Assembly (NCBI GenBank): GCA_030849465.1 | Contig: JARVLF010000007.1 | Coordinates: 310,001 to 374,000, forward strand | Direction: 5' to 3' | Source: Moesziomyces globuligerus | Taxonomy: Eukaryota; Basidiomycota; Ustilaginomycetes; Ustilaginales; Ustilaginaceae | DNA: 64,000 nucleotides | Shown here: positions 7,424-52,315 of the stretch, piece after piece | Layout: each line of letters begins with the position of its first letter | How positions within the stretch are numbered: position 1 is the stretch's first letter | Notes under the pieces: generated by a model | What the model was told of the DNA's origin: nothing | The model's database searches: none | The model's input: only the letters and a program-made list of their open reading frames with translations | Made by a program: the position numbers and the translations under genes

Positions 7424-10400
7424 ATGCCGCCCTCTTCGAGACATAGCGCCCATCCTTCGCACCATCCGCGAGACATGCATCTCTCAGGGCCACCAGGTGG
7501 GCCTCCGCTTCAAGGCGGACCCGGCATGCCCGCCTCGGGTCCAGGAAGCCAACCTCTGCATCATCCGCACTCTTCCTACGCCCAGTCGATGCCGCCGCCG
7601 CCCGGCCTGCCTCCACACGCCATGAACGGTGCCAATGGCCCTCCCTCTGGCCCTGGAGGTCCGCCTCCTGGTCGTCTCGTCATGGCAGAGGGTCCAGGTG
7701 GCGCAGGAGGACCCCCACCCCCACCTCCGCCTCACATCCCCCGATCTTCTTCGGCGCAGAGCCGCATCATGGACGGTCCAGGTGCATCGGGTGCTCCTTC
7801 CTCGGGTGCCGGCGCCTCTTCGTCGCCCGCGCTGCAGAAGCTTGCGCTTGCCAACGAAGCCGCTTGGGTCTCCGTCGGTGCAGCTGCCGAGACCATGGAA
7901 GACTACGACCGCGCGCTCTCCGCATACGAAGCCGCGCTCCGCCACAACCCGTACTCGGTGCCTGCCCTCAGCGCCATCGCTGGCGTTCACCGCACCCTCG
8001 ACAACTTCGAAAAAGCCGTCGACTACTTCCAGCGTGTGCTCAACATCGTTCCCGAGAACGGCGATACCTGGGGCTCCATGGGCCATTGCTACCTCATGAT
8101 GGACGATCTTCAGCGCGCCTACACCGCCTACCAGCAGGCGCTCTATCACCTCCCCAACCCTAAGGAGCCCAAGCTCTGGTATGGCATCGGCATCCTCTAC
8201 GATCGCTACGGCAGCCTCGAACACGCCGAGGAGGCCTTTGCCAGCGTTGTCCGCATGGACCCCAACTACGAAAAGGCAAACGAGATCTACTTCCGTCTCG
8301 GCATCATCTACAAGCAGCAGAGCAAGTTCCCCGCCAGTCTCGAATGCTTCCGCTACATCCTCGACAACCCGCCCCGCCCGCTCACCGAGATCGACATCTG
8401 GTTCCAGATCGGCCACGTCTACGAGCAGCAGAAGGAGTTCAATGCCGCCAAGGATGCTTACGAACGCGTGCTGGCCGAGAATCCCAACCACGCAAAGGTG
8501 CTCCAGCAGCTCGGCTGGCTCTACCACCTCTCCAACGCCGGCTTCAACAACCAGGAGCGCGCCATCCAGTTCCTCACCAAGTCTCTCGAGTCCGATCCCA
8601 ACGACGCACAGAGCTGGTACCTCCTCGGCCGCGCCTACATGGCCGAGCAGAACTACAACAAGGCTTACGAGGCGTATCAGCAGGCTGTCTATCGCGACGG
8701 CAAAAATCCGACCTTCTGGTGCTCCATCGGCGTCCTCTACTACCAGATCAATCAGTACCGCGACGCCCTGGACGCCTACTCGCGCGCCATTCGCCTCAAC
8801 CCGTACATCTCGGAAGTCTGGTTCGACCTCGGCAGCTTGTACGAGGCGTGCAACAACCAGATCAGCGACGCCATCCACGCCTACGAGCGTGCCGCCGACC
8901 TCGACCCCGACAACCCGCAGATCCAACAGCGCCTCCAGCTGCTCCGCAATGCCGAGGCCAAGGGCGGCGAGCTTCCCGAGGCGCCGGTACCTCAGGACGT
9001 CCATCCGACCGCATATGCCAACAACAACGGCATGGCTCCCGGTCCACCTACCCAAATCGGTGGTGGCCCCGGCCCGTCGTACCCACCCCCTCTCGGAGGT
9101 CCTCAGCTCGCCGGTACCGGTGGTGGTCGTGGAGACCTCGGCGAGCGCGATTTGCCCGGCCCTGGCCACTTGCCTCAGTCTCACTCGCCCCCGCCGTTCC
9201 GCGGCCCCGACGACCGTGGCTCGCGAGGACCGCCCCCTGGTGCGCTCGCTCCCATGGCTCCCGGTGGGCCTGGCGGCTACTCGCACTCCCGAGTCCCCTC
9301 GCCCGGCCCGCCGCGTATGGACGCATACGGAAGGAGGATGGGCTCGCCACCACGCCGCTCGCCACCGCCTCCGCTTCGCTCCGACATGCATGATGGCCAT
9401 GGACCTCATGCGCATGGCGGCCAAGGCCACGGCGACTTCCGCGGTCCGCCGCCGATGGGCGCCAGTGGCCCAGGCGGGCCTCCTCCGCCGATGGATCACT
9501 ACGGCCGACCCATTGGTGGTCCCATGAGCGAACGCGAACGAGAGATGGAATGGGAGCGCGAACGCGAGCGCGAGAGGGAGCAGGCGGCTCGCGGCTACGG
9601 TACTAGCGGTCGCGTCACGCCTAAGCACGAAGCAGGCTACGCGCGTTCGCAGCATGGCAGCAATGCGCCATCGCCAGCCTTTGGTCGGCCTCCCGTCTAC
9701 GGCCGGGATGAGGGTCGCGACTACTACAGCAATGGCCACCCGGGCGCTGGACCTGGCGGGCCACGCGGCGGCTACGAACGCGGACCCCCGCCTGGCATGC
9801 GCTACGACGAACGAGGCCCTCCCCCGCCTCACTTTGAGGATGAGCGAGGTCACGGTCCTCACGGCCACCCGAGCGAGGGCCGATACGGTGGCTACGGCGA
9901 TACCATGGACGGTCCCCCCGGCGCGAGGGGACCACCACCGCCTGGGCTGCGAGGACCTACGCCCGAATGGGAGCGCGCCCGTGCTGCGGAAGCCGGCGCT
10001 GCGCCCGGACACGATGGTCCGGACAGCAGGAATGCCGGCGGACCTGTAAAGCCTCGTCGCGCGCCCAAGGCCAAGGACGAGGTCGACGCGGCGGGTGCGC
10101 CGCCCTCGCCCGCACCTTCGGCAGCTGGCAAGAAGGGCAAGCTGACGGGCTCGCGAGCCAGCTCACCGTGGTCTGGCAAGGGTGTCGCAGCGGCTAAGAA
10201 CGGCAAGGGCGGTGCTGGCGGCGCTGCCGCCAAGAAGGGAGTGTCGACGCCGCTGCGTTCGCGCGACGACCAGGCCGGCTCGAGGCCTGGCTCGCCGGCG
10301 GAAGGTGTTCGGGCCCAGCGCGAGGTGTCGCCCGCCAGCTCGGACGGCAGCAACGAGCCGCTGGCCGCGCGGGGACCTGCGTCGCGCGTCGTGGACGAGG

Positions 10401-11116
10401 ACTACGACGAGGGTGCGGCTGACGCCCTCATGGGTCTCGCTGGAGCGGCCTCGGTGTCTGCCTCGGCTGCTGTGCCGGCCGCGGCTGCGGATCGCACCAA
10501 CAGCCCCGACAAGCGGCCCGAGAGCTCGTTGGGCAAGCGACCATACGCCGAAGACGACAAGAGCAGTGCTGGTCCGGAGGATGCGATGTACAAGCGCGCC
10601 AAGAGCGGCAGCGGGTCGGGACCGGCAGGACCGGCGCCTGCCGAGAGCGGCAACGGCCCCGCGGCGTCGAATGGCACGACGGAGGCTGCCAAGCCCGAGC
10701 CGGCGGCCGAGCTTTCGGAGCGCGAAGGGTCGAGCGGTGTCGTTCGCGAGGAGGCTGGAAGCGAGACGGTGACGACGCCACCCAATGCGGCCACGCCGCC
10801 GTCGGCTAAGGCGGTGCCCGAGACGGAGCAGTCGATGGAAGTGGATGCGCCCGAGCCGGCCAAGCCAGCCGAGAGCGCGCCGGCCAAGGATGAGGCTGCC
10901 GCCGAGGCCAAGGGCACGCCAGCGCCTGCTCTGGCATCTGCTCCTGCGTCTGCGTCTGGTTCTGGTTCGGGCGAGCAAGCCCACGCTGCGGAGAAGGGCA
11001 GCAGCAACAGCAGCGGTGCCGAAAAGAACCAGCGCGACGAGGCCGAGGACGACGACGGCCGCGAAGACGAGGAGGGCCAGATCCACGAGGATCCGCCCGA
11101 GAAGCGCGAGGCGTAG
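7424..11116 (+). CDS. CYC8: General transcriptional corepressor Cyc8/Ssn6 (TPR protein)
   Basis: A 1230-residue intronless protein. Residues ~146-510 form a continuous array of about ten tetratricopeptide repeats, for example ALSAYEAALRHNPYSVPALS, then AYQQALYHLPNPKEPKLWYG and CFRYILDNPPRPLTEIDIWF. That order and wording are diagnostic of Ssn6/Cyc8. Cyc8 pairs with Tup1 and is recruited by DNA-binding repressors to silence glucose-, mating- or stress-controlled genes. The N-terminus is Pro/Gly/His-rich. After the TPRs come a long Pro/Gly-rich disordered stretch, a short Glu/Arg helix (EREREMEWERERERERE near 705-720) and an Ala/Ser/Glu-rich tail. A second in-frame ATG lies at codon 18. It converges on the Bni4-like gene. 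Confidence 0.94.
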   Translation: MPPSSRHSAHPSHHPRDMHLSGPPGGPPLQGGPGMPASGPGSQPLHHPHSSYAQSMPPPPGLPPHAMNGANGPPSGPGGPPPGRLVMAEGPGGAGGPPPPPPPHIPRSSSAQSRIMDGPGASGAPSSGAGASSSPALQKLALANEAAWVSVGAAAETMEDYDRALSAYEAALRHNPYSVPALSAIAGVHRTLDNFEKAVDYFQRVLNIVPENGDTWGSMGHCYLMMDDLQRAYTAYQQALYHLPNPKEPKLWYGIGILYDRYGSLEHAEEAFASVVRMDPNYEKANEIYFRLGIIYKQQSKFPASLECFRYILDNPPRPLTEIDIWFQIGHVYEQQKEFNAAKDAYERVLAENPNHAKVLQQLGWLYHLSNAGFNNQERAIQFLTKSLESDPNDAQSWYLLGRAYMAEQNYNKAYEAYQQAVYRDGKNPTFWCSIGVLYYQINQYRDALDAYSRAIRLNPYISEVWFDLGSLYEACNNQISDAIHAYERAADLDPDNPQIQQRLQLLRNAEAKGGELPEAPVPQDVHPTAYANNNGMAPGPPTQIGGGPGPSYPPPLGGPQLAGTGGGRGDLGERDLPGPGHLPQSHSPPPFRGPDDRGSRGPPPGALAPMAPGGPGGYSHSRVPSPGPPRMDAYGRRMGSPPRRSPPPPLRSDMHDGHGPHAHGGQGHGDFRGPPPMGASGPGGPPPPMDHYGRPIGGPMSEREREMEWEREREREREQAARGYGTSGRVTPKHEAGYARSQHGSNAPSPAFGRPPVYGRDEGRDYYSNGHPGAGPGGPRGGYERGPPPGMRYDERGPPPPHFEDERGHGPHGHPSEGRYGGYGDTMDGPPGARGPPPPGLRGPTPEWERARAAEAGAAPGHDGPDSRNAGGPVKPRRAPKAKDEVDAAGAPPSPAPSAAGKKGKLTGSRASSPWSGKGVAAAKNGKGGAGGAAAKKGVSTPLRSRDDQAGSRPGSPAEGVRAQREVSPASSDGSNEPLAARGPASRVVDEDYDEGAADALMGLAGAASVSASAAVPAAAADRTNSPDKRPESSLGKRPYAEDDKSSAGPEDAMYKRAKSGSGSGPAGPAPAESGNGPAASNGTTEAAKPEPAAELSEREGSSGVVREEAGSETVTTPPNAATPPSAKAVPETEQSMEVDAPEPAKPAESAPAKDEAAAEAKGTPAPALASAPASASGSGSGEQAHAAEKGSSNSSGAEKNQRDEAEDDDGREDEEGQIHEDPPEKREA

Positions 11117-22513: not shown

Positions 22514-23650
22514 TCAGCCGACGAAGCGGAAGCTATCGGCCTGGACGTAGTATTTGGCGCTGAGGATGATCTGAGCATCCTTGCCCGTGGTCGACGAGAC
22601 GGCGACGCCTCCTTCGGACGTCGGGACGAGCTGGGCGATGTTGGTGGCGTCGACGAGGACAAAGTTCTGCGAAAAGGCGCGTGGATGCGAAGAGATGGGT
22701 GCGTCCGGGTCAAAGTTGCCGCGATTGCGGTTGGCGCCGTGCGTGGAGGACGTGGCCGACTTGGGCGCCGACGAGGCGGATGCGAGTGCAGACGCCGACT
22801 CGGGCGTGTGGTGCGCCACGGTCCCTGAGACAGTCAGCATCACCGAGGGCGCCGTAAAGTTCGCTATAGCATCGCAGACAGAAATCAAAGGTCAGCATAG
22901 TGAGGCTAAGCACAGAAGAGCGGGAGAGCGGGAGAGGAAGGGGAAAAGCCAGATGGGAAAGCGGAGGGAGACGATGTATGCTTCATATACTACTCGATAC
23001 GACAGTGGACCTTGGATGCGAAAAGTATCGAACCCTTATGAAAAGCGTCGCAGCCCATCTCCTCTCGGCGCACCGGAGCGCGCAAGTTGAGTGGACCAGG
23101 ACTTTGCTCGTTCTCGCCTCGAGCGCGGCAAGCAGGTCGGCAAGGTGCACACGATGATATCCTGCTCCCCTGACCTAGGCGGGCGCTACGACTCGGTCGA
23201 TGCCACACGAGTAGGCGGAACAAGCCCCGCGATTACAGGCCCTTGTCCAGCTCGTCGCGTCATCGACCGTGGAAGAGGCTTTCGTTGCACGTGTTTTCGA
23301 GTAATAGAGGAGGAGGAGCAGGGGCTGGGGTTGAATCGAGACTTACCTCCCTCGACGGCGCCTCCTAGAGCGTGGCAGTCGAATGTGTGGACCTCGTGCT
23401 TGCTGCCGGGCATGCTGTTGAGCATGGCCGAGAGCTCCTGTTGGCCGCTCACAGGTGTGCCGTTCCATACGATCGACGAGTTGGGCAGGTAGAGTGTCGG
23501 AACGAGATTGGTGCGCTGCGGCGAATCCGAGGCTGCGTAGTACGCCGATACGAACGTCTCGGCTGCCTTGGCAGCAAAGTCGGCGAGACGTCGGCTGTCC
23601 GCGCGCCTGTCGGCTGCGGGACCAGTGGGCACCGGACCTCCGGTTGCCAT
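22514..23650 (-). CDS. NTF2-like mRNA export factor (Nxt1/p15-like), two exons
   Basis: Model: exon 1 is 23650-23347 and exon 2 is 22863-22514 on the reverse strand, with one 483-bp intron (GTAAGT donor, TATAG acceptor). Phases join as G|CG, giving Ala. The product is about 217 residues. Exon 1 has the NTF2 helix (AAETFVSAYYAASDSPQ), LVPTLYLPNSSIVWNGTPVS and HEVHTFDCHALGG. Exon 2 supplies the strands VMLTVSGTVAHH, RAFSQNFVLVDA and AKYYVQADSFRFVG. The ending closely follows metazoan p15/NXT1, which pairs with the Mex67/NXF1 receptor to export mRNA through nuclear pores. An Ala/Ser/Asn-rich insert of roughly 40 residues between two strands is longer than in p15. The start is the first ATG in frame. 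Confidence 0.83.
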
Positions 23651-24364
23651 CGTTTCCGAGCTGCTGGCTCTTCGGGCCCAGAAGACGGGTGGGCTCGGAG
23701 TGAGGGGTGGTAGGAGCACGACGAGGCGAGGTGCGGTCAAGCTCGACGTCCCAAATTTGTCCAACACCTGCACCCTCGACTTCCGAATTCCGAAGTCAAT
23801 GGCAGCATGTCGTTGTGGAGAGCTGAGCCAGAGGTGCTGAGCCAGTGGCTAGGCCAGAGGCAGAGCCACAGCACAGCGTATGGGCAAATCCAAAGGGGAA
23901 AATCAGTCGCAGGCCACAGAAGGACCCACCGAGGCGATCTTCTCTGACCCTAAAGCACGCCATGCCCGCCTCCGGCCAGTCGAAATTCACGCCTGCTCTG
24001 CAGCCTGCAACGCCGGTCGTGCGCCACTCAACTGGCCTCTCGCCCTTTGGCTGGGCCAAAGTGACTCGGCTCACAGCCCGCTCTGCCCCGCTTGCACGCG
24101 GCACTCGTGAGCTCAAAATGAGCAGCAGAGCCACCACGGCCAACACTCTGGCCCAACGCTCGGTGATAGATCGCCTCCAACACCACGTCTTCTTCGCTCC
24201 ACACCACAAACCCGTCCTTCTGGTCACTGCGACCACGCACCTCCCACCGACACACGCAGAGCCATCTCACGCTCGCCCATTCAAGGGCCCACAACATCTG
24301 CATTCTCTCGTCGGCCTCCTCACCCGCTTAGCTCCGAACCTGCTTGGCGGCCCTCACGACCAAC
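23651..24364. promoter_or_regulatory. Divergent spacer NXT1-like / PLP-lyase-mevalonate kinase
   Basis: 714 bases between two divergent starts, holding both promoters. No strong TATA box was seen. The sequence near 24170-24364 is C/T-rich, as expected of a leader. Confidence 0.45.
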
Positions 24365-27241
24365 ATGTCGAGCCATCGCGACGCCTTCAGCGTCTCTTCC
24401 TCCCAGGCATCTACCGTCACTCCCTTCCACACCGACGTCGCCTCCTCCGTCGCTTCGCTCGACTCGTCCATCCCCACCTCGCCCGAGCCCTCTGACAGTG
24501 GCGACGATGTCGACATCAAGCTTCCCTTTGTCTCGCACAAGGACCGACGCGGCCCCAATGGCTACCGCTTCGCCACGCAGTGCGCCACCGTAGACGATCC
24601 CAACCACAAGGACCAGTATGGCTCCTCGTCCACCCCCATCTACATGTCCGCCACCTTCAAGGGCCTCCCCGGCGCCGAGTTCGACTATTCGCGCTCCGGC
24701 AACCCCACCCGCTCCATGCTCCAGCACCACCTCTGCCAGCTTCAGAACTGCAAGTACAGCTTCGCCGTCTCCAGCGGCATGGCCTGCCTCGACGTCGTCA
24801 CGCGCATCGTCAAGGCTGGCGAGCGCATCATCGCAGGTGACGATCTCTACGGCGGCACCAACCGTCTGCTCGGCTACCTCGCTTCTCACCAGAACATCCA
24901 CACCGACCACGTCGACACCACCGACGCCTCCAAGGTCGAGGAGATGCTCCAGAAGCGCGCCGCAGACGCCGCCGCCGGCCGCTGCGGCAAGGTCAGCATG
25001 GTCCTCCTCGAGACTCCCACCAACCCTTGCCTGAAGATCTGCGATCTGCAGCGATGCGCCGCGGCCGCCAAGAAGTGGGCTCCTGACGCCGTCGTCGTCG
25101 TCGACAACACCATGATGTCGCCCTACCTCATGCGTCCTCTCGAGCTCGGCGTCGATGTCGTCTACGACTCGGGCACCAAGTATCTCTCGGGTCACCACGA
25201 TCTCATGGCCGGCGTCATTGCCTGCGACCGCGACGACCTCGGCAAGCAGATCGCCTTCACCATCAACTCGATCGGCAATGCGCTCACTCCCATGGACTCG
25301 TTCCTCCTCCTCCGCGGCATCAAGACGCTCGCTGTGCGCATGGACCGCCAGCAGGCCTCCGCCATCACCGTCGCCCACTATCTGGACTCGCTCGGATTCA
25401 AGGTCAACTACCCCGGCCTCGCCTCGCACCCGTCCAAAGCCGTGCACGACAAGCAGGCGGCCGGGCCCGGCTCGGTGCTCAGCTTCGTCACGGGCGACAA
25501 GGCGCTCTCCGAACGTATCGTCGGCGCCACTCGACTCTGGGGTATCTCGGTCTCCTTTGGCTGCGTCAACAGTCTCATCTCGATGCCGTGCCTCATGTCG
25601 CACGCTTCCATCGACCCCAAGGTACGCGCCGCCCGAGGCATGCCTGAAGATCTCATCCGCCTCTGCGTCGGTATCGAGGACGAGCGCGATCTGCTCGAGG
25701 ACCTCGAGAACGCGCTCCTGCAGGCCGGCGCCATCCGCCGCAAGCGCTCCAGCCGATCCGCCCAGCTCGGCTCCACCACCGACAGCTCGCGCGCTGCCTC
25801 GCCAGATCCGATCGCCTACGAACGCACGCCTCTGCACACCGAAGAGCTCGCCCAGGACGACAAGGTCGGCGGTTTGGTCGACGACATGAACCGCGCCAAG
25901 CTCGAGACCCGCGGCGGTGAGGGGGAACCTCGCCTGGCCCAGGATCACCCGCCGCCGCCCACCTCGCTCGTCGTGAGCGCGCCCGGCAAGGTGATCCTCT
26001 TTGGAGAGCACGCCGTGGTGCACGGCGTCACCGCGATCGCCGGCTCGGTCGCGCTGCGCTGCTACGCCAGCGTCTCGCCGCGCGAGGATGGCAAGATCTC
26101 GCTCGACTTGCCTGACCTCGGCGTGGTGCACACGTGGAGCATCACCGAGCTGCCGTGGTCGGCGGTGCCCCATTCGATCCAGACCGGCGGTGCGGTTCCC
26201 GACTCGCTCGACGCAGGCCTGGTGAGCGCCATCGAGAAGGTGGTCGGCAACACGGTCAACGAGAGCGAGAGGAGCCACGCTGCCTCGATCGCATTCCTCG
26301 TGCTCTACATGTGCATTGTAGCGCGCAAGACCGACGCCCGTGCGCAGGCATTCGTGCTGCGCTCTGCTCTGCCCATCGGCGCTGGTCTCGGATCGAGCGC
26401 AGCGCTGAGCTCGTGCCTGGCTGCCGCACTCAACATGCTGTACGGCCGCATCCCGGCTCCTCAGGCGGGCGCCAATGAAGTGGCAGCCGAGCACTCGGCT
26501 TACGTGAACCAGTGGGCCTTCCTCTCGGAGAAGGTGATCCACGGCACGCCGTCCGGCGTGGACAACTCGGTGGCCGTCCACGGCGGCGCGATCGCCTTTA
26601 CGCGCGCGCACCCGAGCAACACGCTCACAGCCAACAAGATGGAGAAGCTCAAGGGCTTCTCGTCGTTCCGCTTCCTGCTGGTCGACAGCTGCGTGGGCCG
26701 CGAAGGCAAGAAGCTGATCGCGCACGTTGCCGCGCAGAAAGAGGCGGAGCCGGCGCGTGTCAACGCTGCGCTCGCCCGCATCCAGACTATCGCCGACCGG
26801 GCCAAGCACCTGCTCGGCGGCAGCTCGGACGTCGGCCGTGCCTTCCAGGTCGCCGCCCTGCACGAGCTGGTCAAGCAGAACCACACGGAGCTCGTGGGGC
26901 TCGAGGTGTCTCACCCGGCGCTCGAGCTGATCAAGAACAAGACCGAGGCGTTCGGTGCGGGCGAGCTGGCAACTAAGCTCACGGGCGCCGGCGGCGGAGG
27001 CTGCGCGGTCACGCTGCTGCCGGACGCGTTTGAGGCCAGCAAGGTGCACGAGCTCGTTGACGAGCTGACCAATGCAGGGTTCAAGTGCTACGAGACGCGC
27101 GTCGGCGGCGACGGATTCGGCGTCCGCGTGCCGCAGAGCGACGAGGACGCAGCGCAGGCCAAGCTCCGCTTCCAGGAGGTCAACGTCAGCGCCGAGCTCG
27201 CGCAGTGGGCAGAGGCACAGGACGGATGGGTGTTTGCCTGA
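24365..27241 (+). CDS. Bifunctional fusion: cystathionine lyase-type PLP enzyme + mevalonate kinase
   Basis: One uninterrupted 958-residue frame with two complete enzyme domains. Residues ~50-460 are a Cys/Met-metabolism PLP enzyme: FDYSRSGNPTR, the VSSGMACLDVV region, DNTMMSPYLMRPLELG and the Schiff-base motif SGTKYLSGHHD with Lys ~272. This resembles cystathionine beta-lyase (Str3 type; cystathionine to homocysteine). After a ~75-residue Ser/Arg/Pro linker, residues ~533-958 are mevalonate kinase (Erg12 activity; mevalonate to 5-phosphomevalonate): SAPGKVILFGEHAVVHG, the GHMP loop PIGAGLGSSAALSS (~669-682), HGTPSGVDNSV and KLTGAGGGGCAVTLL. All key motifs look intact. The frame extends seven codons upstream only via TTG, so ATG 24365 was chosen. 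An internal ATG near 25887 lies in the linker and could start a separate kinase. No stop or intron separates the halves. Confidence 0.92.
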   Translation: MSSHRDAFSVSSSQASTVTPFHTDVASSVASLDSSIPTSPEPSDSGDDVDIKLPFVSHKDRRGPNGYRFATQCATVDDPNHKDQYGSSSTPIYMSATFKGLPGAEFDYSRSGNPTRSMLQHHLCQLQNCKYSFAVSSGMACLDVVTRIVKAGERIIAGDDLYGGTNRLLGYLASHQNIHTDHVDTTDASKVEEMLQKRAADAAAGRCGKVSMVLLETPTNPCLKICDLQRCAAAAKKWAPDAVVVVDNTMMSPYLMRPLELGVDVVYDSGTKYLSGHHDLMAGVIACDRDDLGKQIAFTINSIGNALTPMDSFLLLRGIKTLAVRMDRQQASAITVAHYLDSLGFKVNYPGLASHPSKAVHDKQAAGPGSVLSFVTGDKALSERIVGATRLWGISVSFGCVNSLISMPCLMSHASIDPKVRAARGMPEDLIRLCVGIEDERDLLEDLENALLQAGAIRRKRSSRSAQLGSTTDSSRAASPDPIAYERTPLHTEELAQDDKVGGLVDDMNRAKLETRGGEGEPRLAQDHPPPPTSLVVSAPGKVILFGEHAVVHGVTAIAGSVALRCYASVSPREDGKISLDLPDLGVVHTWSITELPWSAVPHSIQTGGAVPDSLDAGLVSAIEKVVGNTVNESERSHAASIAFLVLYMCIVARKTDARAQAFVLRSALPIGAGLGSSAALSSCLAAALNMLYGRIPAPQAGANEVAAEHSAYVNQWAFLSEKVIHGTPSGVDNSVAVHGGAIAFTRAHPSNTLTANKMEKLKGFSSFRFLLVDSCVGREGKKLIAHVAAQKEAEPARVNAALARIQTIADRAKHLLGGSSDVGRAFQVAALHELVKQNHTELVGLEVSHPALELIKNKTEAFGAGELATKLTGAGGGGCAVTLLPDAFEASKVHELVDELTNAGFKCYETRVGGDGFGVRVPQSDEDAAQAKLRFQEVNVSAELAQWAEAQDGWVFA

Positions 27242-28239
27242 ACGTCAATCCTTTGCTGCAGGGCTTGGGCGATTCTTTAGCTTTCCGTTTCTTGTGTAGA
27301 AATTCCACGTTTCGATGCTCGAGATGCTGTGTTGCTGCCGTGTGTGCATGGTGGGTTTGGATGCGGACAGTGCTTTGCAGAGCTTGCGAAACAAAGAAAA
27401 CGAGGGCCTGCATGAGCGCAGGGTAAGGTTCCCACGCCTGTGCAGGTCAAGCTCCGGTGGCGGAGGCGCCAAGCGGAGAGAGCGGTTGGTGGGTCGAGAT
27501 GAAGCTGAGCGGCACGATGCATAACGACAGCCGCGCTGCTTCCGGAAGCTGCGCGAGGTTGGGTTGGAAGAGCGCCCTTTGTGTCCACCGAGCTTGTCGG
27601 CATCGCCGTGCGCGACCGGAGGAGCCGACATATAAGTAGCAGCAACACAAGGCAGAGTAGTTTGGGGGTGCACCCCCTCGAACCTTGTTGATCAAGCTCC
27701 TCAGATCGGCGTCGCGCTCTTCACCACCGTCTCTTTGGGTTGTTCCACAGCTGCTGGACTCAGCTTCTTTCTCCGTTTCGCACGTCCCGCACGTTTCGCA
27801 CAAACGCCGATCTGCGATCCGACAGGTGAGGCAACCTACGGGAGAAAGACGCAGACGTCGTGGACGTGTACCTTGTTCGTTGCTGCGCGTGCTCCGCTCG
27901 ACGTCGGCTGCCGTCGCTCGCCCTTTGTCGTTATCCGGTCGATTGGCAATGACCCCGTTTCTCCGCTCCGCCTGCACTACGCTGACCGACATCGCTTGTT
28001 CCGACTGCCCGCAGCCCACGACTCGACGATCCAGGTAGGTGCATCCACCCCCAAACCTTTCCGCACATACGGGGGCTCCGATGCGGGATCGTAGCCTATA
28101 AGAGCCCCACCCCATCCCTATCGTCCCTCATCGAGATCCCCAGTTTCGCCTCTTTCGAACCTCACGATACTAACGTCTGCTCTCTCTTCGCATCTAGAAC
28201 CTCGATTTCACTAGAAAATCTTCTCGCTAGGTAGACACG
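27242..28239. other. Spacer upstream of secreted barrel protein gene
   Basis: About 1 kb of 3' UTR, promoter and leader. A TATAAG at 28097-28102 is 138 bp before the next ATG, and another ATATAAG occurs at ~27630. Open frames across it lack protein-like features. Confidence 0.45.
28097..28102 (+). promoter_or_regulatory. TATA-like box for secreted barrel protein gene
   Basis: CCTATAAGAG lies 138 bp upstream of the ATG at 28240, a usual distance for a fungal TATA box with a short leader. The assignment is by motif and position only. Confidence 0.45.
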
Positions 28240-29181
28240 ATGACGTTCGCTCGGCTTCAGCGCATGGTGGTCATGTGCACGGTGGTGGCAGCTGGTCTGC
28301 TCGCCGTGCACGTGGCCGCCCTCCCCACGAGCCAGGCTCACCGGATGCACCTGGCTCACAAGCGCCACTTTGACGCCCGCGCCGAGCACGACGATCTCGA
28401 GGCCCAGGTGCATGCGCTCGAGGCGGCGCTTCAGCACTACGCCGAGTACGGCGATCAGCAGAGCCTCCAGACCTACCTCGATGGCATCGGCCACGGCTCG
28501 AACGCAAGCGAGAAGCCCGCCCCTGCTCAGGACGTGAGCCAGGGGAAGCCTCAGGCCGGTCAGCCTCAGCCCAAGCAGAACGCGGGCGAAGACTGCGAGG
28601 ACCAGGCCAACGTCCCGCCCAAGAAGGAGCCCAAAAAGGCGACCAAGCGCCCTGGCAATGATCAGCCTCAAACCCAACCCCATCTTCAGCCCAAACCCAA
28701 GCCTCAGCCTCAGGCTCAGGCTCAGCCGCAGCCTCAACCTCAGCCGGAGCCGAAGCCGAAGTCGTCGGGTCAGAGTCAGGATAACGGATCGATTGACGGC
28801 TACACTCCTCCGTCGTTCGCGACCTCGGAGGCGCCGTCGACCACGTCGCTCTACCGATCGGTGCCGTTCAAGGGCAAGGCTACGTTCTACAACACGGGCA
28901 TGGGCGCGTGCGGCGTGACCAACTGCGACAACGATCCGATCGTCGCCGTCTCCAAGGACGTCTTTGAGCAGTACAATCCGAGCTCGGGCAATCCGAACCA
29001 CAACTCGCTCTGCGGCCGCCGCATCGAGATCAGCTGGAACGGCAAGACGGCGCACGCCTTTGCCATGGACGAATGCCCCACCTGCGACGACCACAGCCTC
29101 GACCTCAGCCCGCAGGTGTTTGACAAGCTCGACCTCCGTGACAAGGGCGTGCTCGACGGCATCTCGTGGCGCTTCATCTAG
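28240..29181 (+). CDS. Secreted RlpA/expansin-like double-psi beta-barrel protein
   Basis: A 313-residue protein with a signal peptide (hydrophobic core MVVMCTVVAAGLLAVHVAAL, likely cleavage before ~LPTSQA). A possible Kex2 site follows (AHKRHF), then a Gln/Pro/Lys-rich linker encoded by CAGCCT-type repeats. Residues ~208-313 are the barrel: GKATFYNTGMGACG, FEQYNPSSG, SLCGRRIEISWNGKTAHAF and DECPTCDDHSLDLSP. The HSLDLS motif and paired cysteines are typical of RlpA/barwin/expansin folds. There is no C-terminal carbohydrate-binding domain, so it is not a full expansin; members of this type in fungi are called riboflavin-aldehyde-forming-enzyme-like, usually with unproven activity. It is probably extracellular or in the cell wall. 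The 3' end converges on SEC15 with a 111-bp gap. Confidence 0.88.
   Translation: MTFARLQRMVVMCTVVAAGLLAVHVAALPTSQAHRMHLAHKRHFDARAEHDDLEAQVHALEAALQHYAEYGDQQSLQTYLDGIGHGSNASEKPAPAQDVSQGKPQAGQPQPKQNAGEDCEDQANVPPKKEPKKATKRPGNDQPQTQPHLQPKPKPQPQAQAQPQPQPQPEPKPKSSGQSQDNGSIDGYTPPSFATSEAPSTTSLYRSVPFKGKATFYNTGMGACGVTNCDNDPIVAVSKDVFEQYNPSSGNPNHNSLCGRRIEISWNGKTAHAFAMDECPTCDDHSLDLSPQVFDKLDLRDKGVLDGISWRFI
28700..28756 (+). repeat. CAGCCT-type in-frame hexanucleotide repeat
   Basis: Imperfect CAGCCT/CAGGCT units encode a Pro-Gln/Ala-Gln linker in the secreted barrel protein. The repeat keeps frame, so copy changes would only alter linker length. Confidence 0.75.
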
Positions 29182-29292: not shown

Positions 29293-31686
29293 CTATCTGC
29301 GGAAGGCGGGAGAATTGAGGACGCGGACGAGTGCGTCCTTGTCGCGCTGCCGCTTGGCCGCGAGTTCGGCCTCAGCAGGCACGCGGGCGTGCGAGCGGTA
29401 GAGTCGGTCGAGCAGCGTGAGCAGCTTCCTCGGGTCGACGGCCGCGTACGGCCACGCGCCCACGCCTGGCTGTTTGCCGCTCTGAAGCATGGTGACGTAC
29501 TCGACGACCTTTTCCTGCCTGACCACGGCGAGGGACTGAAGAATGTGCGCAAAGCCCGCCGGGTCGATATTGACCTCGGCCGCATTGCTCACCAAGAAGT
29601 CGACATCGGTCTGGAGCACGTCGAGTCCTGCCGGATTCACCGCCGTCGCCGCATCCGGTCCCAAGAGCTGACGATCAAGCAGACTCGTTGCCAGATGCTC
29701 GTACGCCGCCTTGTACACCTTGCTCTTGACCGGCGTGGGCAACAAGACGAGGACCGACTCCATCATGGTGCGTAGCCACTCGACGGTATCCTGCAACCAA
29801 GCCGAGACCCTCCCGCTGGCGGGCGTGCGCGGCGCAAAGTCGTACTCGGCAATGCCCAGGAACTGGTCCAGCTTGGCGGCAAAGGCGCTGTTGATCTTGG
29901 ACTCTGCGATGCGCAGCGTGGCGACAAAGTGCTTGCTGGCATCGAGCTGGAGCTTACCGCCGCGTCCGTGCGGCGCGCGCAGCGCGGCCAGCAGATTCTC
30001 GAGCTCGAGACAGGCGAGGTTGAAATGCTCGGCATTGACGACGATCTGGGCGATCTGCGAGAGGTTGATCGCCGCGGTGTTGTCCAGCGAACGTCGGATG
30101 CCCGTCGAGACCTGCTGGATGAGCAGCTCGTCGAGACTCTTCTTTAGGATCTCGTCGATCTCGCGGTGGTTCTGGGAGAAGCTGAATCCGTCCGAAAAGA
30201 CGTAGTACTGATCCACGAGGTTGCGCATGTCCATGCAGCAGAGCGGATAGGTCTGCGAGAACGGCAGCGAGAGCGGGAAGGTCGATGCGCGCAGCTGCTG
30301 TTCGTCGCCCGGTTGCAGCCAGCAGACCGAGAGGACCTTGTTGAGCTCGTCGGTGTTGTGCACGACCATGGGCTGGTGCTGCGTCTCGCGCATGGCCTGT
30401 TGAAAGTCGCGACTGAACCGATCGCGCAGCAGCTGCGCATACCGCTCGAAGAGCGTCAGCAGCAGCGCGTTGAGCTTGGCCACGGGGAAGGAGAAGCCCT
30501 CGAGCGTCTGGATGAAGGTCTGGATGGCCGCCTTGGCGGCGACGTACACCTTTGTCTCGCTGCAGTCGCGCAGCGCGAGCGAGACGATATCGACGACGCG
30601 GCTGCACATGCTGTCCCACAGATCGTCCACCTCGGCCTCTGCTCGGAAGCCGGCCGGAGTGGTCTGGATGACGTGGTGCTCGACGAGGAAGAAGCCGACC
30701 ATCTCCTCGAGCAGCGGCGGAAACGCCGGACTGGCAGCGTCGAACGACAGTCCCTGGTTGAGCAGCAGATTTGCCTGGGCGCGGCGATCTTCCTGGTACG
30801 ACATCTGGAGCTCCTCGCGCAGATCGAGCGCATCGTAGATGTGGATGCACTGGTAGAGCGGCCGGAAGTCGATCGCTACGGTGTCGTTGTCGACAAAGTT
30901 GTGCTCGGTGCGCTCGTTGACCACGAGCTCGATGGCCGAGTTGAGCTTGGCGAGCCTCAGTAGCGGATCGCGCTGTGCCTTGATGCGCCACCGCTTCTGC
31001 CTGGTCTCCATTGCATCGAGGGCGAGTTTGCCGACGGTCCGCGACTTTTCGCGCGCCTCGAAGAGCCATTCCTTCATCTCGCGTGTCACTGCGGCCTTGA
31101 CTTGGTTGCGCATTTGTGGGATCGAGTCCATCATATGCTTAGCAAACTCGTGATGCAGGACCGCTCGCAGATGCACCGACTCGAGCTCCTGCAAGCTGCG
31201 CAGCGCCGCAAAGTATTTCTTCTCCTGAATCAGGCTGTCGACGCGGTTGGCCAGGTCAAGCACGCGGAGGGATGTGTGGAGCGAGGCGATGGCGTCGTTG
31301 ACGTTGGCGGCGGTGCGCTGCGTCTCGAGCAGCTGGCGCTTCTTGTTGCCGAGTGAAGTGCCGCCTGCCTGTACGTCTTCGTTGAGCTCGCCGATGCGAT
31401 GCTTGAGCGTCACGGTGCCCGAGCGCACCTTGAGCAGCTTGTCGACCGCGGCGACGAACTCGCTGTGATTGGCATCGCAGACTGCCTCGATCTCGCTGTC
31501 CTTGTCGCGGACAAAGCTCTTGAGGTGGCGGAGGAAGGCGTCTTGTTGGCGCGCCTCGTCAAGCGACTTGATGATGGGTCCGAGCTGCTCGAGGTTCTCC
31601 TGGTCCGCATCAAGGTCGGAGAAGAGGGTGAGCTGCTGAAGCTGCGCCTCGAGCGAGACGAGAGGTCGGCGTGGACGAGCGACCAT
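29293..31686 (-). CDS. SEC15: Exocyst complex subunit Sec15
   Basis: A 797-residue intronless protein. The N-terminal coiled-coil part contains VDKLLKVRSGTVTLKHRIGE, ANVNDAIASLHTSLRVLDLA and KYFAALRSLQELESVHLRAV, followed by SIPQMRNQVKAAVTREMKEW. This order and spacing match Sec15/EXOC6. The C-terminal helical domain includes DVLQTDVDFLVSNAAEVNID and ends near SHARVPAEAEL. In the exocyst, Sec15 is the effector of the Rab GTPase Sec4 and links secretory vesicles to the plasma membrane at growth sites. I first considered COG4, but the N-terminal block is Sec15-specific. The start at 31686 is an ATG at the beginning of the conserved coiled coil. Confidence 0.92.
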   Translation of the reverse strand: MVARPRRPLVSLEAQLQQLTLFSDLDADQENLEQLGPIIKSLDEARQQDAFLRHLKSFVRDKDSEIEAVCDANHSEFVAAVDKLLKVRSGTVTLKHRIGELNEDVQAGGTSLGNKKRQLLETQRTAANVNDAIASLHTSLRVLDLANRVDSLIQEKKYFAALRSLQELESVHLRAVLHHEFAKHMMDSIPQMRNQVKAAVTREMKEWLFEAREKSRTVGKLALDAMETRQKRWRIKAQRDPLLRLAKLNSAIELVVNERTEHNFVDNDTVAIDFRPLYQCIHIYDALDLREELQMSYQEDRRAQANLLLNQGLSFDAASPAFPPLLEEMVGFFLVEHHVIQTTPAGFRAEAEVDDLWDSMCSRVVDIVSLALRDCSETKVYVAAKAAIQTFIQTLEGFSFPVAKLNALLLTLFERYAQLLRDRFSRDFQQAMRETQHQPMVVHNTDELNKVLSVCWLQPGDEQQLRASTFPLSLPFSQTYPLCCMDMRNLVDQYYVFSDGFSFSQNHREIDEILKKSLDELLIQQVSTGIRRSLDNTAAINLSQIAQIVVNAEHFNLACLELENLLAALRAPHGRGGKLQLDASKHFVATLRIAESKINSAFAAKLDQFLGIAEYDFAPRTPASGRVSAWLQDTVEWLRTMMESVLVLLPTPVKSKVYKAAYEHLATSLLDRQLLGPDAATAVNPAGLDVLQTDVDFLVSNAAEVNIDPAGFAHILQSLAVVRQEKVVEYVTMLQSGKQPGVGAWPYAAVDPRKLLTLLDRLYRSHARVPAEAELAAKRQRDKDALVRVLNSPAFRR

Positions 31687-47734: not shown

Positions 47735-50700
47735 TTAGCGGCGTCTCTGTCTAAGCGGTTTGATCTGGCGCTGTCCGTTAGCAGCTGGACTTGCGCCCTG
47801 AGCTGCAGGGCTCGCGCCGATACTAAACAGGCCAGGGTTAGCTGGCATCTGAGGCAGCGATGGCGCATTGGGCGCTGGACTTCCAAAGCTAAACCCTGTC
47901 GAGGTTGCCGGCGCCGCCTGACCGAATCCAGCCATGGGCGTTTGCGACTGGGACTGGGCGCCGAATGCAAACCCACCCGGAGTTGCAGGCGCCGCCGGCT
48001 GAGCCGGCGATCCAAACTGAAACGCTCCACCCGGAGCTGCAGCCGGAGCTCCCGCTCCGAACTGGAACGGCGAACCGCCTGGCGTGGTCGGTGCAGCCGC
48101 TGGAGCAAGGAACGGCGAAGCAGGTGCCGAACCTACGCCGGGCGTGGTCGAGCCGGGCGCGGATCCAAAGGTAAACGACGTGCTCGGCGCCGTCGTCGGT
48201 GCGGGCGAACCGAAGCGGAACGTTCCCGCGGCTGCGCTCGGACTGGGCGCCGCTCCAGCCGCGGGCGCACCAAACGTAAACGTCGACGAACCAGCCGCAC
48301 TCGGCGCAGGCGATCCAAACGTAAATCCACCCGTAGCCTTGGCCGGCGTAGCCGATCCAAACGAAAACGTAGGTGCTCCTCCCACCGCCGTCCCGCCCGC
48401 GGCCCCCGCGCCCGACGTGGGCGAAGAAACACCTTTCTGCGGCGAATCATCCATCATCTCTCCGCCCGTCGACTTGGGCGTCGCGAATCCAAACCCACCC
48501 ACCCCCGCAGCCGAGCTCGTCGACGCAGCAGGCGTACCGAACGAAAACCCACCCGACGCCTTGTCCGCCCCACTGCTGGCAGCAGGCGCACCAAAGGTGA
48601 ACGATCCCGTCGGCGTGCTCGTCCCCGACCCACCCGTCGAGCCGGGCGCAGACCCAGCCGCCTCGCCAGCCTCGGGCTTGGCACCGAACGAAAACGTCGT
48701 TGCCGGCTTCGGATCCGCTGCAGCAGCGCCGAATCCAAACCCACCCATCGCGGGCTTCGCACCCTCGCCTGCCGGCTTGGGCGCACCGAAGCTAAACCCA
48801 CTCGAGGCCGGAGCACCGCTCGAAGCCTCGGCCTTGCTGCCAAAGAAGTTCGGCACGCCTCCCTGCGGTGCATCCGCCTTGGGCGTGGTCAGACCAAACC
48901 CAGCCGCCGCCGGCACAGACGCAGGCGTAGGCGCGGGTGCAGACGCAGCAGCGGCCTCGACGGGCTTGGCAGCGGCGGGCGCGCCAAACGCGAAACTCGG
49001 CATGCTCTTCTTGGCTGCGGGCTCGTCGTCGTCTGCTGCGCCGCGCTTCGCTCCTCCCGACGCCGGCGCACCGAAGCTGAACCCGCCCGCACCCGCCGCG
49101 GTGCTCGACGATGCGCCGAAGAACGACGGCTTGCTTGCCGCTGGTGCCGCCGGTGCTGCCGGTGCTGCCGGTGCTGCCGGTACTGCCGGTGCTGCCGGTG
49201 TCTCGGGCTTCTTCGCCTCGCTCGCAGACGGCGCAGGCTCTGCGGGCTTCGCCCCGAACCCACCGAACGGTGACGCAGCTGCCGCTGGCATCGCTGGCTT
49301 GGCGCCAAAGCTAAAGGCCGGCTGCTTAGCCGGTTCGGCCTTCGCCTCGGACGACGGCGTAGCGCTCGCTGCAGGCGCGCCAAACGAGAAGCCACCCGAG
49401 CTCGGAGCCGCCGCTGCTGGCGCGTCGTCAGTCTTGGGTTCGAACTTCTGCATCGTGCTACCGAAGAAGTTGGGCACCGGCCCGTCCTTCTTGCCCTCGC
49501 CAAGCGACGTCGAGGCGGGCTGGGCGGGCTTGCTGAAAAAGTCGGACGTCGGCGCCGCCGTGGTCGGCTTCTTGCCCTCCGACGCGGCGGCGCTGCTTTC
49601 CTTGCCGGCATTCGTCAGCGTGGCGCCAAAGTTGAACTTGGGCGGTTCCGCCGGTGCCGCCGGCTTGGTAGGTGCAGGGAACGAGAACGACAACGGCTTA
49701 GTCGGCTCTGGCTTGTCCGTCTTGGTGTCGCTGGACGCCGACGAGTCGAAGCCGCCGAGTCGGCCGAGCAGAGAACCGCCCGCGGCAGAAGCATCCTCCT
49801 TGCTGCCTTGCGCCTCCTTGGCCGCATCCGCCATGGCTGGCTTGGCAGCCTCGGCATCGGCGTCCGTGGGCTTGGCGCCAAACGAGAAGTTGGTGGGGAA
49901 CATGTTGGTGGGCAGCTTGATCTTTGCGAGCTCGGTGGCGTCCGGCAGGCCTTCGTCTTCGTCTTCGTCGTCCCAGGCGCTGAACTTGCCCGAGCTCTGA
50001 TGGGTGCGCGACGTCTTGGCCGCGCCCTGGCGCAGCGAGCTCCTCTCACGCGGCGCCGCCGGATCCGCAGTCGCCCTCACGGCAAAGTTGTCCTTCTTGG
50101 CCGTGCTCGCCGGCGCCTTGTTGGCCGCCGAGAGCGCGATGCGGTGCGAGGCAGGCTTGGGCGTCTCCACCGGCGCGGCGGGCTGTGCGCCACGCAGAGG
50201 CGTGGCTTTGAGCGCCGACTTGAGCTGGGTTGGGCGTCCAGCTTTGTCGTCGTGCTTGACCGGTGTCTGGACCGCTGCATCCGCCATGGGAGTCTGCTTC
50301 TGCAGTCGTCTGGATCGTCGGATCGGCTCGGGTGGCGGAGAGGGCGGCTCTTCGGGCTCTTCGGTCTGTTCCGAACGCATGTCTTCGTCCGAGACAGCAG
50401 AGCCTTCGATCTCGGTAGCATCCTCCTCAATCTGAGAATCCTTGACCCCCGCAGGGGCATCTCGCTTGAGCCTAGCTCGCATGCCCCCCTGCTCGTCGGC
50501 GGCGGACTGGATCGCCTTGGCCTTGCGGAGGTATCGGGTGTAGGGAGCGACGCCGACGGTCGGCTTGGCATCGTGCGACTTGGCATTCCTAGCAGTCGAG
50601 GCCGGCGCGTCCGAGATGGGAGCGGGCACGTTGATTGACGTCGGCCTGGCGATGCCGATACCGACGCCGCGGGCCGTGGCAGTAGGCTTGCGCAGCGTAT

Positions 50701-52315
50701 CGAGCACGTTCAACAGACGCTCTGCCTCGTTCTTGGGCGAAGGCAGCTTGGGCTCTCTAGCCTTGAGCTCTTCGTGGCTGATGAAGCCGAGCTCTGGATG
50801 CCAGACCATCCTTCGCTTGGACGGGGTGCCTGTGGCGGCCGAATCGCCGTCGACGCTCATGTCGATGTCGCGCTTGCCTCGGCGACTGGGCGTGAGCGAC
50901 TCGGTCTCGTCCATCACGCTGCCGCCGGCGACGGACGGGGTGACCATGGCGTCCTCCGACGGCAGACCGATGCTACGACGCACGGCGGGGTTGACACCCG
51001 GGAGCGTGCGCGTGGAGAGATACTCGCGCATGAGCTCGTCGCCAAGCGAGGGGTTGGAGGGCGCGGCGAGGTTGATGCCGTTCCAGTGGCGCTTGCGGCT
51101 GGGCGAGTTGGTTGCCGAGAGAGCAGGCGAGCCGGATCGGAGACCGACGCTGCCGGCTCGGGACGTGCGGCCGGGCGTGCCCGCGTCGCTGAAGAGGCTC
51201 GAGCGGAGATTGGGGCGGCTCGAGCGGTAGAGGCTGCTGCGTGCCGAGATCTGGAAGGGCGAGCTGGAGGGCGGCAGACCAAAGGCACTGTCGGTGTAGC
51301 GGACCTCGTTGCCGTAGCCAAACGCGCTGAACGAGTTGGAGTGGCTCAAGGAGGTGGAGCCGGACTCGGACATGGCATCTTCCGGACGGAGGGATGAGCC
51401 GCGGAGAGCATAATGTTGGGAGCGAGGGCTTCGGAGCGTCTGGTAGCTCCTGGAGTGGTACACCTGAGCGGGACCCGGCGACGCGCGGCCGGCATCGCTG
51501 AGCACTTCGAGCGAGTCGTTGGGGTCGGCGGCCGAGCGAGAGGCGACGTCGAGCATGCGCTTGGAGCTTCGCGTGTTCCAGGAGGATGCGCGATCGGCGT
51601 CGAGTTCGGCCGGCTGCTTGTGCAGAGAGGAAGGACCCGCGCGCGGGCTGGTTGGGGCGAGAGAGTAATGTTTGCGAGTCGGTGGAGGGGCGTTGGCGAG
51701 ACGAGACATGGAGGCGGATGCCGGGATGCTGGATGCAGGCGGACGAAGCTGGCTCTCTTCGTCGTCGTGGACGTTGGAGCGTGTGCGAAGGCCGGCGGCG
51801 AGACGCTCGCCCACGGCGCGGGCCGCGCGCGTAGGCGCGTCCTTTTCGTGCTTGGATTGTTCTGAGTCAGGCGGAAGCGAGGCCTGTGCGGCGGCGCGAC
51901 GACGGGCGATGGAGGAGAGCGAATTGGTGCTGGAGGAGGTGGGCATGCCGAGCTCGGGTTCGACGGCCGCAGAGGCGCCTGTGAGCCACGCCAAAGGTCT
52001 GGAGACCATCTTGCGGACGCTTCCAAAGAGGGCGCCGGGCGAAGCTGCGACGCGGAGGGGGGAGAAGGCGGAGTGGGTGGCAGCAGGGTTGGAGGGAGGT
52101 GCGAGCGTCTTGGCGGCGGGGGTGGCAGGCTGGGCTGGGGAGAAGTCGGAATCGGCGTGAAGGGAGGCGTTGGAGCCGGAGGGCGTGATGCCGGACGATG
52201 GACGTGCATAAGGCTTCAAGGAAGAAGAGCGTTTCTGGCGTGCCAGGACGCGAGCACGCGCTGGACCCGCGAGGGGCTTGGCGGGCGAGTCGGGGTACTG
52301 CGCTGGGAAGTCCAT
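47735..52315 (-). CDS. FG-repeat nucleoporin, Nup1/Nup124/Nup153-like
   Basis: A 1526-residue intronless protein. From residue ~800 to the C-terminus it carries dozens of FSFG/FxFG-type repeats (FSFGAP, FTFGAP, FQFGSP, NFFGS) separated by Ala/Pro/Thr-rich spacers, the phase-forming transport repeats of nuclear pores. The N-terminal half has SVRKMVSRPLAWLTGAS at ~98-115, a possible membrane-binding amphipathic helix. HPELGFISHEELK and KNEAERLLNVLDTLRKP lie near 515-535, resembling the conserved segment of basket nucleoporins Nup1, Nup60 and Nup153. A basic tail ends RQIKPLRQRRR. The function would be importin docking at the nuclear basket. The choice among Nup1, Nup2 and Nup60 is inference. 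The ATG at 52315 (MDFPAQYPDSPAKPLAG) was chosen over a non-ATG extension. Confidence 0.85.
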   Translation of the reverse strand: MDFPAQYPDSPAKPLAGPARARVLARQKRSSSLKPYARPSSGITPSGSNASLHADSDFSPAQPATPAAKTLAPPSNPAATHSAFSPLRVAASPGALFGSVRKMVSRPLAWLTGASAAVEPELGMPTSSSTNSLSSIARRRAAAQASLPPDSEQSKHEKDAPTRAARAVGERLAAGLRTRSNVHDDEESQLRPPASSIPASASMSRLANAPPPTRKHYSLAPTSPRAGPSSLHKQPAELDADRASSWNTRSSKRMLDVASRSAADPNDSLEVLSDAGRASPGPAQVYHSRSYQTLRSPRSQHYALRGSSLRPEDAMSESGSTSLSHSNSFSAFGYGNEVRYTDSAFGLPPSSSPFQISARSSLYRSSRPNLRSSLFSDAGTPGRTSRAGSVGLRSGSPALSATNSPSRKRHWNGINLAAPSNPSLGDELMREYLSTRTLPGVNPAVRRSIGLPSEDAMVTPSVAGGSVMDETESLTPSRRGKRDIDMSVDGDSAATGTPSKRRMVWHPELGFISHEELKAREPKLPSPKNEAERLLNVLDTLRKPTATARGVGIGIARPTSINVPAPISDAPASTARNAKSHDAKPTVGVAPYTRYLRKAKAIQSAADEQGGMRARLKRDAPAGVKDSQIEEDATEIEGSAVSDEDMRSEQTEEPEEPPSPPPEPIRRSRRLQKQTPMADAAVQTPVKHDDKAGRPTQLKSALKATPLRGAQPAAPVETPKPASHRIALSAANKAPASTAKKDNFAVRATADPAAPRERSSLRQGAAKTSRTHQSSGKFSAWDDEDEDEGLPDATELAKIKLPTNMFPTNFSFGAKPTDADAEAAKPAMADAAKEAQGSKEDASAAGGSLLGRLGGFDSSASSDTKTDKPEPTKPLSFSFPAPTKPAAPAEPPKFNFGATLTNAGKESSAAASEGKKPTTAAPTSDFFSKPAQPASTSLGEGKKDGPVPNFFGSTMQKFEPKTDDAPAAAAPSSGGFSFGAPAASATPSSEAKAEPAKQPAFSFGAKPAMPAAAASPFGGFGAKPAEPAPSASEAKKPETPAAPAVPAAPAAPAAPAAPAASKPSFFGASSSTAAGAGGFSFGAPASGGAKRGAADDDEPAAKKSMPSFAFGAPAAAKPVEAAAASAPAPTPASVPAAAGFGLTTPKADAPQGGVPNFFGSKAEASSGAPASSGFSFGAPKPAGEGAKPAMGGFGFGAAAADPKPATTFSFGAKPEAGEAAGSAPGSTGGSGTSTPTGSFTFGAPAASSGADKASGGFSFGTPAASTSSAAGVGGFGFATPKSTGGEMMDDSPQKGVSSPTSGAGAAGGTAVGGAPTFSFGSATPAKATGGFTFGSPAPSAAGSSTFTFGAPAAGAAPSPSAAAGTFRFGSPAPTTAPSTSFTFGSAPGSTTPGVGSAPASPFLAPAAAPTTPGGSPFQFGAGAPAAAPGGAFQFGSPAQPAAPATPGGFAFGAQSQSQTPMAGFGQAAPATSTGFSFGSPAPNAPSLPQMPANPGLFSIGASPAAQGASPAANGQRQIKPLRQRRR
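49141..49200 (-). repeat. 9-bp tandem repeat (GCCGGTGCT unit) inside nucleoporin CDS
   Basis: Nearly perfect 9-bp units encode repeated Ala-Ala-Pro in a spacer between FG motifs. The repeat keeps the frame. Confidence 0.85.

Follow-up and report, generated by a model that had tools for sequence, protein, structure and literature searches.

Cystathionine beta-lyase (CBL) and mevalonate kinase (MVK) are enzymes with no metabolite in common, and their occurrence in a single open reading frame (ORF) of the smut fungus Moesziomyces globuligerus raises the question of what this gene encodes and why its two parts stay joined. The frame lies in a 64,000-nucleotide stretch of contig JARVLF010000007.1, here called the window. 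The gene is very probably the smut member of a bifunctional CBL-MVK protein of basidiomycetes, in which each half would work as an enzyme of its own, joined to the other by a flexible tether. The fusion is already known, having been published in 2012, and is widespread in basidiomycetes, not a local oddity.

The gene and its two halves

The frame runs uninterrupted on the plus strand from the ATG at 24365 to the TGA at 27239-27241 and encodes 958 aa, in the order complete CBL, 78-residue linker and complete MVK. Its features, in window coordinates, are the following.

24365..27241, plus strand: coding sequence of the CBL/MVK fusion, 958 aa plus TGA; the best 13 matches cover 99-100% of the query
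24365..24592, plus strand: N-terminal extension, residues 1-76, upstream of the start of the Pfam match (77); low model confidence
24593..25717, plus strand: CBL domain (Cys_Met_Meta_PP, residues 77-451)
25178..25180, plus strand: codon of K272, the presumed PLP-binding lysine; K in 119/119 fusions
25736..25969, plus strand: interdomain linker, residues 458-535, 78 aa, from the alignment; largely low model confidence
25886..25888, plus strand: in-frame linker ATG (M508), candidate internal start; unconserved, M in 19/119 fusions
25907..25918, plus strand: TRGG linker motif, residues 515-518; in the linkers of 31/119 fusions
25970..27238, plus strand: MVK half (residues 536-958), containing GHMP_N (662-741) and GHMP_C (830-895)

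The Pfam domain Cys_Met_Meta_PP matched residues 77-451 with 403.7 bits against a cut-off of 27, and GHMP_kinases_N (662-741) and GHMP_kinases_C (830-895) both scored over their cut-offs. Among the NCBIfam models, TIGR01329 (eukaryotic-type cystathionine beta-lyase) gave 510.3 bits for the whole protein (cut-off 487.5) and TIGR00549 (mevalonate kinase) 198.6 bits for the C-terminal half alone (cut-off 163.05).

We checked 17 motif positions in an alignment of 119 fusions, comprising 118 relatives and the window protein, and 14 of them were invariant: Y108, R110, Y162, D247, K272 and R432 in the lyase, and K542, E548, S677, E722, S730, D733, T873 and G876 in the kinase. The variable positions were S137 (S in 102, C in 9, T in 8), G672 (G in 77, S in 42) and H726 (H in 118, Q in 1). 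We take K272 to be the PLP-binding lysine and Y108, R110, Y162, D247 and R432 to be the active-site Tyr, Arg and Asp of CBL; K542, E722 and D733 are presumably the catalytic Lys, Glu and Asp of MVK, and S677 and T873 parts of its GHMP motifs. Judged by this alignment, the PLP lysine and the active-site Tyr, Arg and Asp are present in the CBL half, as are the catalytic Lys, Glu and Asp and the GHMP motifs in the MVK half, and both halves are probably catalytically active. Domain matches, family models and motif alignment thus agree on the two-enzyme fusion in a single ORF, with catalytic motifs intact in both halves, that the earlier note had proposed; the linker, put there at about 75 residues, measures 78 (458-535), and the PLP lysine placed near residue 272 is indeed at that position, with K in all 119 fusions.

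A sequencing error hiding a stop codon, which that note had named as a possible refutation, is very unlikely: the 13 best matches to the full protein (P0002-P0014) are 951-963 aa long, with 85-92% identity to the query across 99-100% of its length. That an assembly or reading-frame artefact has united two adjacent genes can be dismissed almost entirely, since many species have full-length orthologues, which lie on various contigs and come from various sources. Nothing was found in favour of such an artefact.

The copy number of both enzymes was assessed in the 18.5 Mb genome (24 contigs) by six-frame profile searches of the best candidates, a design that could miss a second copy if it were strongly diverged or interrupted by introns. 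GHMP profiles found five loci, namely galactokinase, homoserine kinase, diphosphomevalonate decarboxylase, phosphomevalonate kinase (its best family, at 319.1 bits, under the cut-off of 376.95) and the MVK of the fusion. PF01053 gave eight matches at seven loci, of which the fusion alone passed the CBL model (TIGR01329). The others were a cystathionine gamma-lyase/synthase-like protein (under all cut-offs shown), an O-acetylhomoserine sulfhydrylase (over its cut-off), a second, weaker gamma-lyase-like protein, a divergent member with BesB and gamma-synthase as best models, a cysteine-desulfurase-like protein and a 5-aminolevulinate-synthase-like stretch. Hence, no second MVK or CBL over a curated cut-off was found among the best six-frame candidates of this genome. 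This speaks, together with the distribution of the invariant motif positions over both halves, against the idea that one half is a relic and the protein a single active enzyme, which we consider highly improbable. No observation in favour of a relic was made.

In the predicted structure, two folded halves are connected by a low-confidence linker, with pLDDT below 50 at residues 1-78, 80-113 (within the lyase domain), 396-412 and, in the linker, 467-480 and 492-524. The nearest solved structures by sequence are 1ibj (Arabidopsis) for CBL, and 2r3v and 1kvk for MVK; the kinase half has the mevalonate kinase fold. For the lyase half the prediction has flaws, with low confidence at residues 80-113 and 396-412 and a Foldseek rmsd of 10.2 to 1ibj. 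With a pTM of 0.51, the predicted model fixes no arrangement of the domains relative to each other. The halves would fold separately, joined by a flexible tether. The N-terminal one would serve as the cell's CBL, converting cystathionine into homocysteine, pyruvate and ammonia (STR3/metC step), and the C-terminal one as its MVK, converting mevalonate into 5-phosphomevalonate (ERG12 step). Mevalonate kinase is a dimer. With the lyase described as a tetramer in the accessible text of PMC11506715, the assembly may be a lyase tetramer bearing kinase dimers.

Distribution and origin of the fusion

The search with the full-length protein, suggested earlier as a way to map the clade that carries the fusion, scored 8000 candidates, of which 858 proteins had E values of at most 0.001. 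In the best 120 of the 858, a listing whose ranking and length window favour fusions, 118 proteins contained more than 80% of both halves, and the other two were partial (P0033 and P0095). Among the matches listed, fusions were present in all three basidiomycete subphyla: Ustilaginomycotina (including Malassezia and Tilletia, with Ustilago, Sporisorium and Pseudozyma as best named relatives), Pucciniomycotina (Sporobolomyces, Rhodotorula, Microbotryum and Mixia) and Agaricomycotina (Cryptococcus, dacrymycetes, mushrooms and Bartheletia). Taxonomic placement was checked for Bartheletia, Mixia and Jaminaea and is assumed from general taxonomy for the other genera. No name from Wallemiomycetes or Entorrhizomycetes was noticed among the matches listed. 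As the genes are fused in the 13 best matches, the possibility that they are separate in all close relatives, raised as another refutation, does not apply.

Searches with single halves leave out proteins of fusion length and are therefore a fairer test for separate enzymes. Among the matches listed, the named non-basidiomycete proteins in both half searches were single enzymes, presumably from Ascomycota, Mortierellomycota, Mucoromycota, a glomeromycete, a zoopagomycete and chytrids, and 14 non-basidiomycete species names occurred in both searches, providing unfused MVK/CBL pairs. Of the 120 proteins listed for the MVK half, 33 were closer to the fused set: 13 had a CBL segment, five more a CBL tail, 11 began within the kinase and are uninformative either way, three (P0125, P0136 and P0153) began with sequence that looks, by eye, like the linker in another protein that bears the junction, and P0130 alone was without explanation. 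Correspondingly, 18 of 120 in the CBL-half search were closer to the fused set, of which 15 continued into kinase sequence, two ended within the lyase and only P0252 was without explanation. Apart from the 13, none of the 120 listed MVK-half matches showed a CBL segment; apart from the 15, none of the 120 listed CBL-half matches showed an MVK segment. The two unexplained proteins are both listed with 27,861 bases as the longest contig, and they stand beside Jaminaea (Microstromatales) in the two trees; they may represent one locus, either a genuine split or the halves of a broken gene model. In the rust Austropuccinia psidii, a 510-aa model (P0343) spans the lyase into the kinase.

The MVK tree had 57 rows. 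A branch with a support of 100/99 separated 38 rows of basidiomycete type (26 fusions and 12 short) from 19 others, comprising 14 named unfused rows and five further rows. Within the 38, Pucciniomycotina (99/95) and Agaricomycotina (97/93) were recovered, and Ustilaginomycotina weakly (82/28). In the CBL tree (46 rows), drawn with a midpoint root among the fusions, the 14 unfused outgroup rows formed one side of a branch with an SH-aLRT of 100. The window protein grouped with the basidiomycete fusions in both half-trees. By label, the fused rows are not one group, with 11 changes needed in the MVK tree and six in the CBL tree, because short rows (12 MVK and six short CBL models) sit among the fusions. 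We read these short rows as probably cut gene models, a reading that may not hold for every one of them. With the short rows so taken, and since one strongly supported branch parts the basidiomycete-type rows from the others in both trees, a single fusion event in the basidiomycete ancestor would be the simplest history. One fusion in the basidiomycete ancestor was also the conclusion in PMC3342255, according to the portion available of that paper.

Retention of the fusion

Could one ORF still give two products, through cleavage of the linker, or through a promoter within it or premature polyadenylation that yields separate enzymes as well? The linker is long and of low model confidence, and the CBL half is far slower evolving and has a stronger bias towards C-ending codons, as if more highly expressed. 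Compared with the window protein, the lyase half was 96-99% and the kinase half 77-88% identical in P0002-P0005, P0007-P0009, P0013 and P0014 (97.7-99.2% and 83.1-87.5%, respectively, in the subset P0002-P0005 and P0007-P0009), and the C-ending share of C- or G-ending fourfold codons fell from 83% in the CBL half to 55% in the MVK half. However, the same 5' to 3' fall was seen in 10 of the 10 window ORFs of at least 450 aa, of which the fusion and Sec15 alone were otherwise checked as genes; the gradient looks general, and we rejected unequal expression of the halves as a deduction from codon bias.

MVK also outpaced CBL in the 14 unfused species (12 mortierellids, Absidia and Bifiguratus), although the smut ratio is the higher one: the median MVK/CBL distance ratio was 6.5 in 13 Ustilaginales-type fusions and 3.7 in the unfused species, and the excess persisted at matched CBL distance (8.2 versus 5.3 at distances below 0.05, and 4.9 versus 3.5). 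A general effect of fusion on the rate asymmetry was discarded, as the median ratio was lower in the other fusions: Exobasidiomycetes 3.9, Pucciniomycotina 3.2, Agaricomycotina 2.3, Malassezia 1.4. Neither the codon bias nor the rate contrast is clearly fusion-specific. An internal start in the linker, for which the earlier note had pointed to an ATG near 25887 (actually 25886), did not hold up either: the position is M in only 19 of the 119 aligned fusions and a gap in 86, and 60 of the 119 linkers are without any Met. Taken together, two separate products seem unlikely.

A somewhat better, but still doubtful, candidate is an idea already raised in the earlier note, namely coupling of the pathways: the fusion would have been kept across Basidiomycota as a cross-pathway regulator that links the supply of homocysteine/methionine, and with it of S-adenosylmethionine (SAM), to the earliest kinase reaction in sterol synthesis. 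The lyase would sense or reflect homocysteine/methionine status and alter the kinase, or isoprenoid feedback acting on MVK would work in the opposite direction, so that the supply of SAM is matched to sterol C24-methylation. Fusions are indeed kept in all three subphyla, and 12 positions, five in MVK and seven in CBL (e.g. W948 and D268), are fixed in at least 93% of fusions and at most 15% of unfused relatives, spread over both halves as an interface might give; these positions may, however, be plain lineage markers. The linker also argues against coupling, ranging from 32 to 128 aa (median 46) over the 119 fusions, and sharing, in those compared rows that belong to neither Ustilaginales nor Exobasidiomycetes, 17-44% identity with that of the window protein, as do the lack of a fixed domain arrangement in the model and, from pathway knowledge, that of a shared metabolite. 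The TRGG motif occurred in 31 of the 119 linkers, all named carriers being Ustilaginomycotina.

Two further features of the C-terminus were considered and set aside. A lost peroxisomal tail finds no counterpart in the unfused enzymes, as an SKL-type C-terminal tripeptide was present in 0/102 unfused CBLs and 0/119 fusions. A conserved tail acting as a docking element was dropped because Trp within the last 12 residues is found in unfused MVKs as well (81/87, versus 117/119 fusions); a two-Trp pattern, present in 113/119 fusions and 1/87 unfused MVKs, was derived from the fused set itself.

We tentatively favour, instead of metabolic coupling, a one-way ratchet together with co-expression. The fusion may be retained mainly since it is the sole source of both enzymes, and a split would have to supply the kinase with its own promoter and start at once. 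Its immediate effect would be co-expression in a fixed ratio, not channelling, because neither enzyme uses the product of the other. If the P0130/P0252 pair is a genuine secondary split, as it may be, the ratchet idea would be weakened.

Where the fusion is the sole copy, removal of one gene should hit methionine and sterol synthesis together, and a mutant phenotype ascribed to methionine could stem from the kinase half.

Comparison with known systems

The earlier note knew of no standard fungal annotation with this pairing, a view at odds with publications from 2012 and with two database names: among the matches listed, P0032 and P0092 are called 'cystathionine beta-lyase/mevalonate kinase', and many other listed fusions merely 'cystathionine beta-lyase'. 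In the available text of PMC3342255 (2012, the Ganoderma lucidum genome; cited as Liu et al. in PMC4129116), the fusion is named metC-MVK, is reported from basidiomycetes only, in 12 of them with the exception of Laccaria bicolor, and averages about 886 aa; seven of the species examined there carry a 16-aa insertion within the MVK part. In the basidiomycetes analysed, it was the sole MVK, and no other gene had the CBL entry as its best match. PMC3468542 (2012, Magnaporthe STR3) describes, in the sections accessible, a C-terminal MVK domain on the STR3 orthologues of all Basidiomycota examined except Postia placenta, and a stand-alone MVK was not found in basidiomycetes; the MVK similarity was called weak (30-40% identity) and the function left open. 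The reason for the lasting union across the phylum is likewise left open in the available parts of both papers. The fusion report is repeated in a later genome paper (PMC4129116, consulted in extract), and a mycelial unigene (transcript assembly) of Pleurocybella is a fusion according to the text at hand of PMC3720577. A functional study of the fusion was not found in searches of open-access literature, and nothing on the fusion was found in the accessible portions of PMC1903366, PMC11506715 and PMC5109733.

In Ustilago maydis, Mvk1 (UMAG_05496) is named as the smut mevalonate kinase in the accessible text of PMC7396576, which does not mention a lyase half there and gives it as the sole pathway enzyme not predicted in KEGG. 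Mvk1 is probably an orthologue of the fusion, and the fusion may explain such annotation gaps, with names that mention CBL alone and, in the available text of PMC7396576, an MVK missing from the KEGG prediction.

Compared with metC-MVK as described in the available text of PMC3342255, the smut protein has the same domain order and is longer (958 aa versus the reported average of about 886), and nothing essential differs. It likewise shares the architecture of the basidiomycete STR3 orthologues in the accessible sections of PMC3468542, while its MVK half here passes the curated model TIGR00549. Each half is homologous to the separate STR3/metC CBL and ERG12 MVK of other fungi, where the two enzymes are two proteins.

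Neighbours and codon usage of the fusion gene

The gene that fuses cystathionine beta-lyase (CBL) to mevalonate kinase (MVK) has the following neighbours in the window:

23189-23848, minus strand, NTF2/Mtr2-like protein
28234-29178, plus strand, protein whose double-psi beta-barrel match falls below threshold
29296-31686, minus strand, exocyst subunit Sec15

The antisense strand of the entire fusion gene also carries a stop-free frame of 974 codons (24320-27244, minus strand), and GC-rich codon choice has probably produced this frame as a side effect.

Codon usage was compared between the first and second halves of ten ORFs within the window that do not overlap and are 450 aa or longer, most of them candidate genes only, and in all ten the fourfold codons moved from C-ending towards G-ending. 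This shift possibly represents a gradient along smut genes. Examples from the set are:

58211-63688, minus strand, ORF
47738-52315, minus strand, ORF
7424-11113, plus strand, ORF

Linker, relative rates and protein length

Across the 119 aligned fusions, the linker is variable apart from a TRGG motif, which is located at 25907-25918 in the window and is found in 31 of these proteins. In 13 smut-group proteins (from P0001-P0018), the evolutionary rate of the kinase half exceeded that of the lyase half by more than it did in the unfused species, i.e. fungi with separate CBL and MVK, even at matched lyase distance, where the median kinase/lyase distance ratio was 8.2 vs 5.3. Additionally, among the matches listed, the fusion proteins of Malassezia psittaci and M. 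yamatoensis (P0034 and P0035; 1249 and 1210 aa) exceed those of six other named Malassezia (830-863 aa) by some 350-420 aa.

Separate and possibly linked genes elsewhere

Separate MVK and CBL models (P0130 and P0252), for both of which the longest contig given is 27,861 bases, group with Jaminaea and are the sole candidate for a secondary split among the matches listed. In the outgroup Mortierella sp. GBA30, the longest contig given for the unfused MVK and for the unfused CBL (P0196 and P0263) is 140,356 bases in each case, and the two genes may therefore be linked there; for the remaining mortierellid pairs compared, the contigs given differ within each pair.
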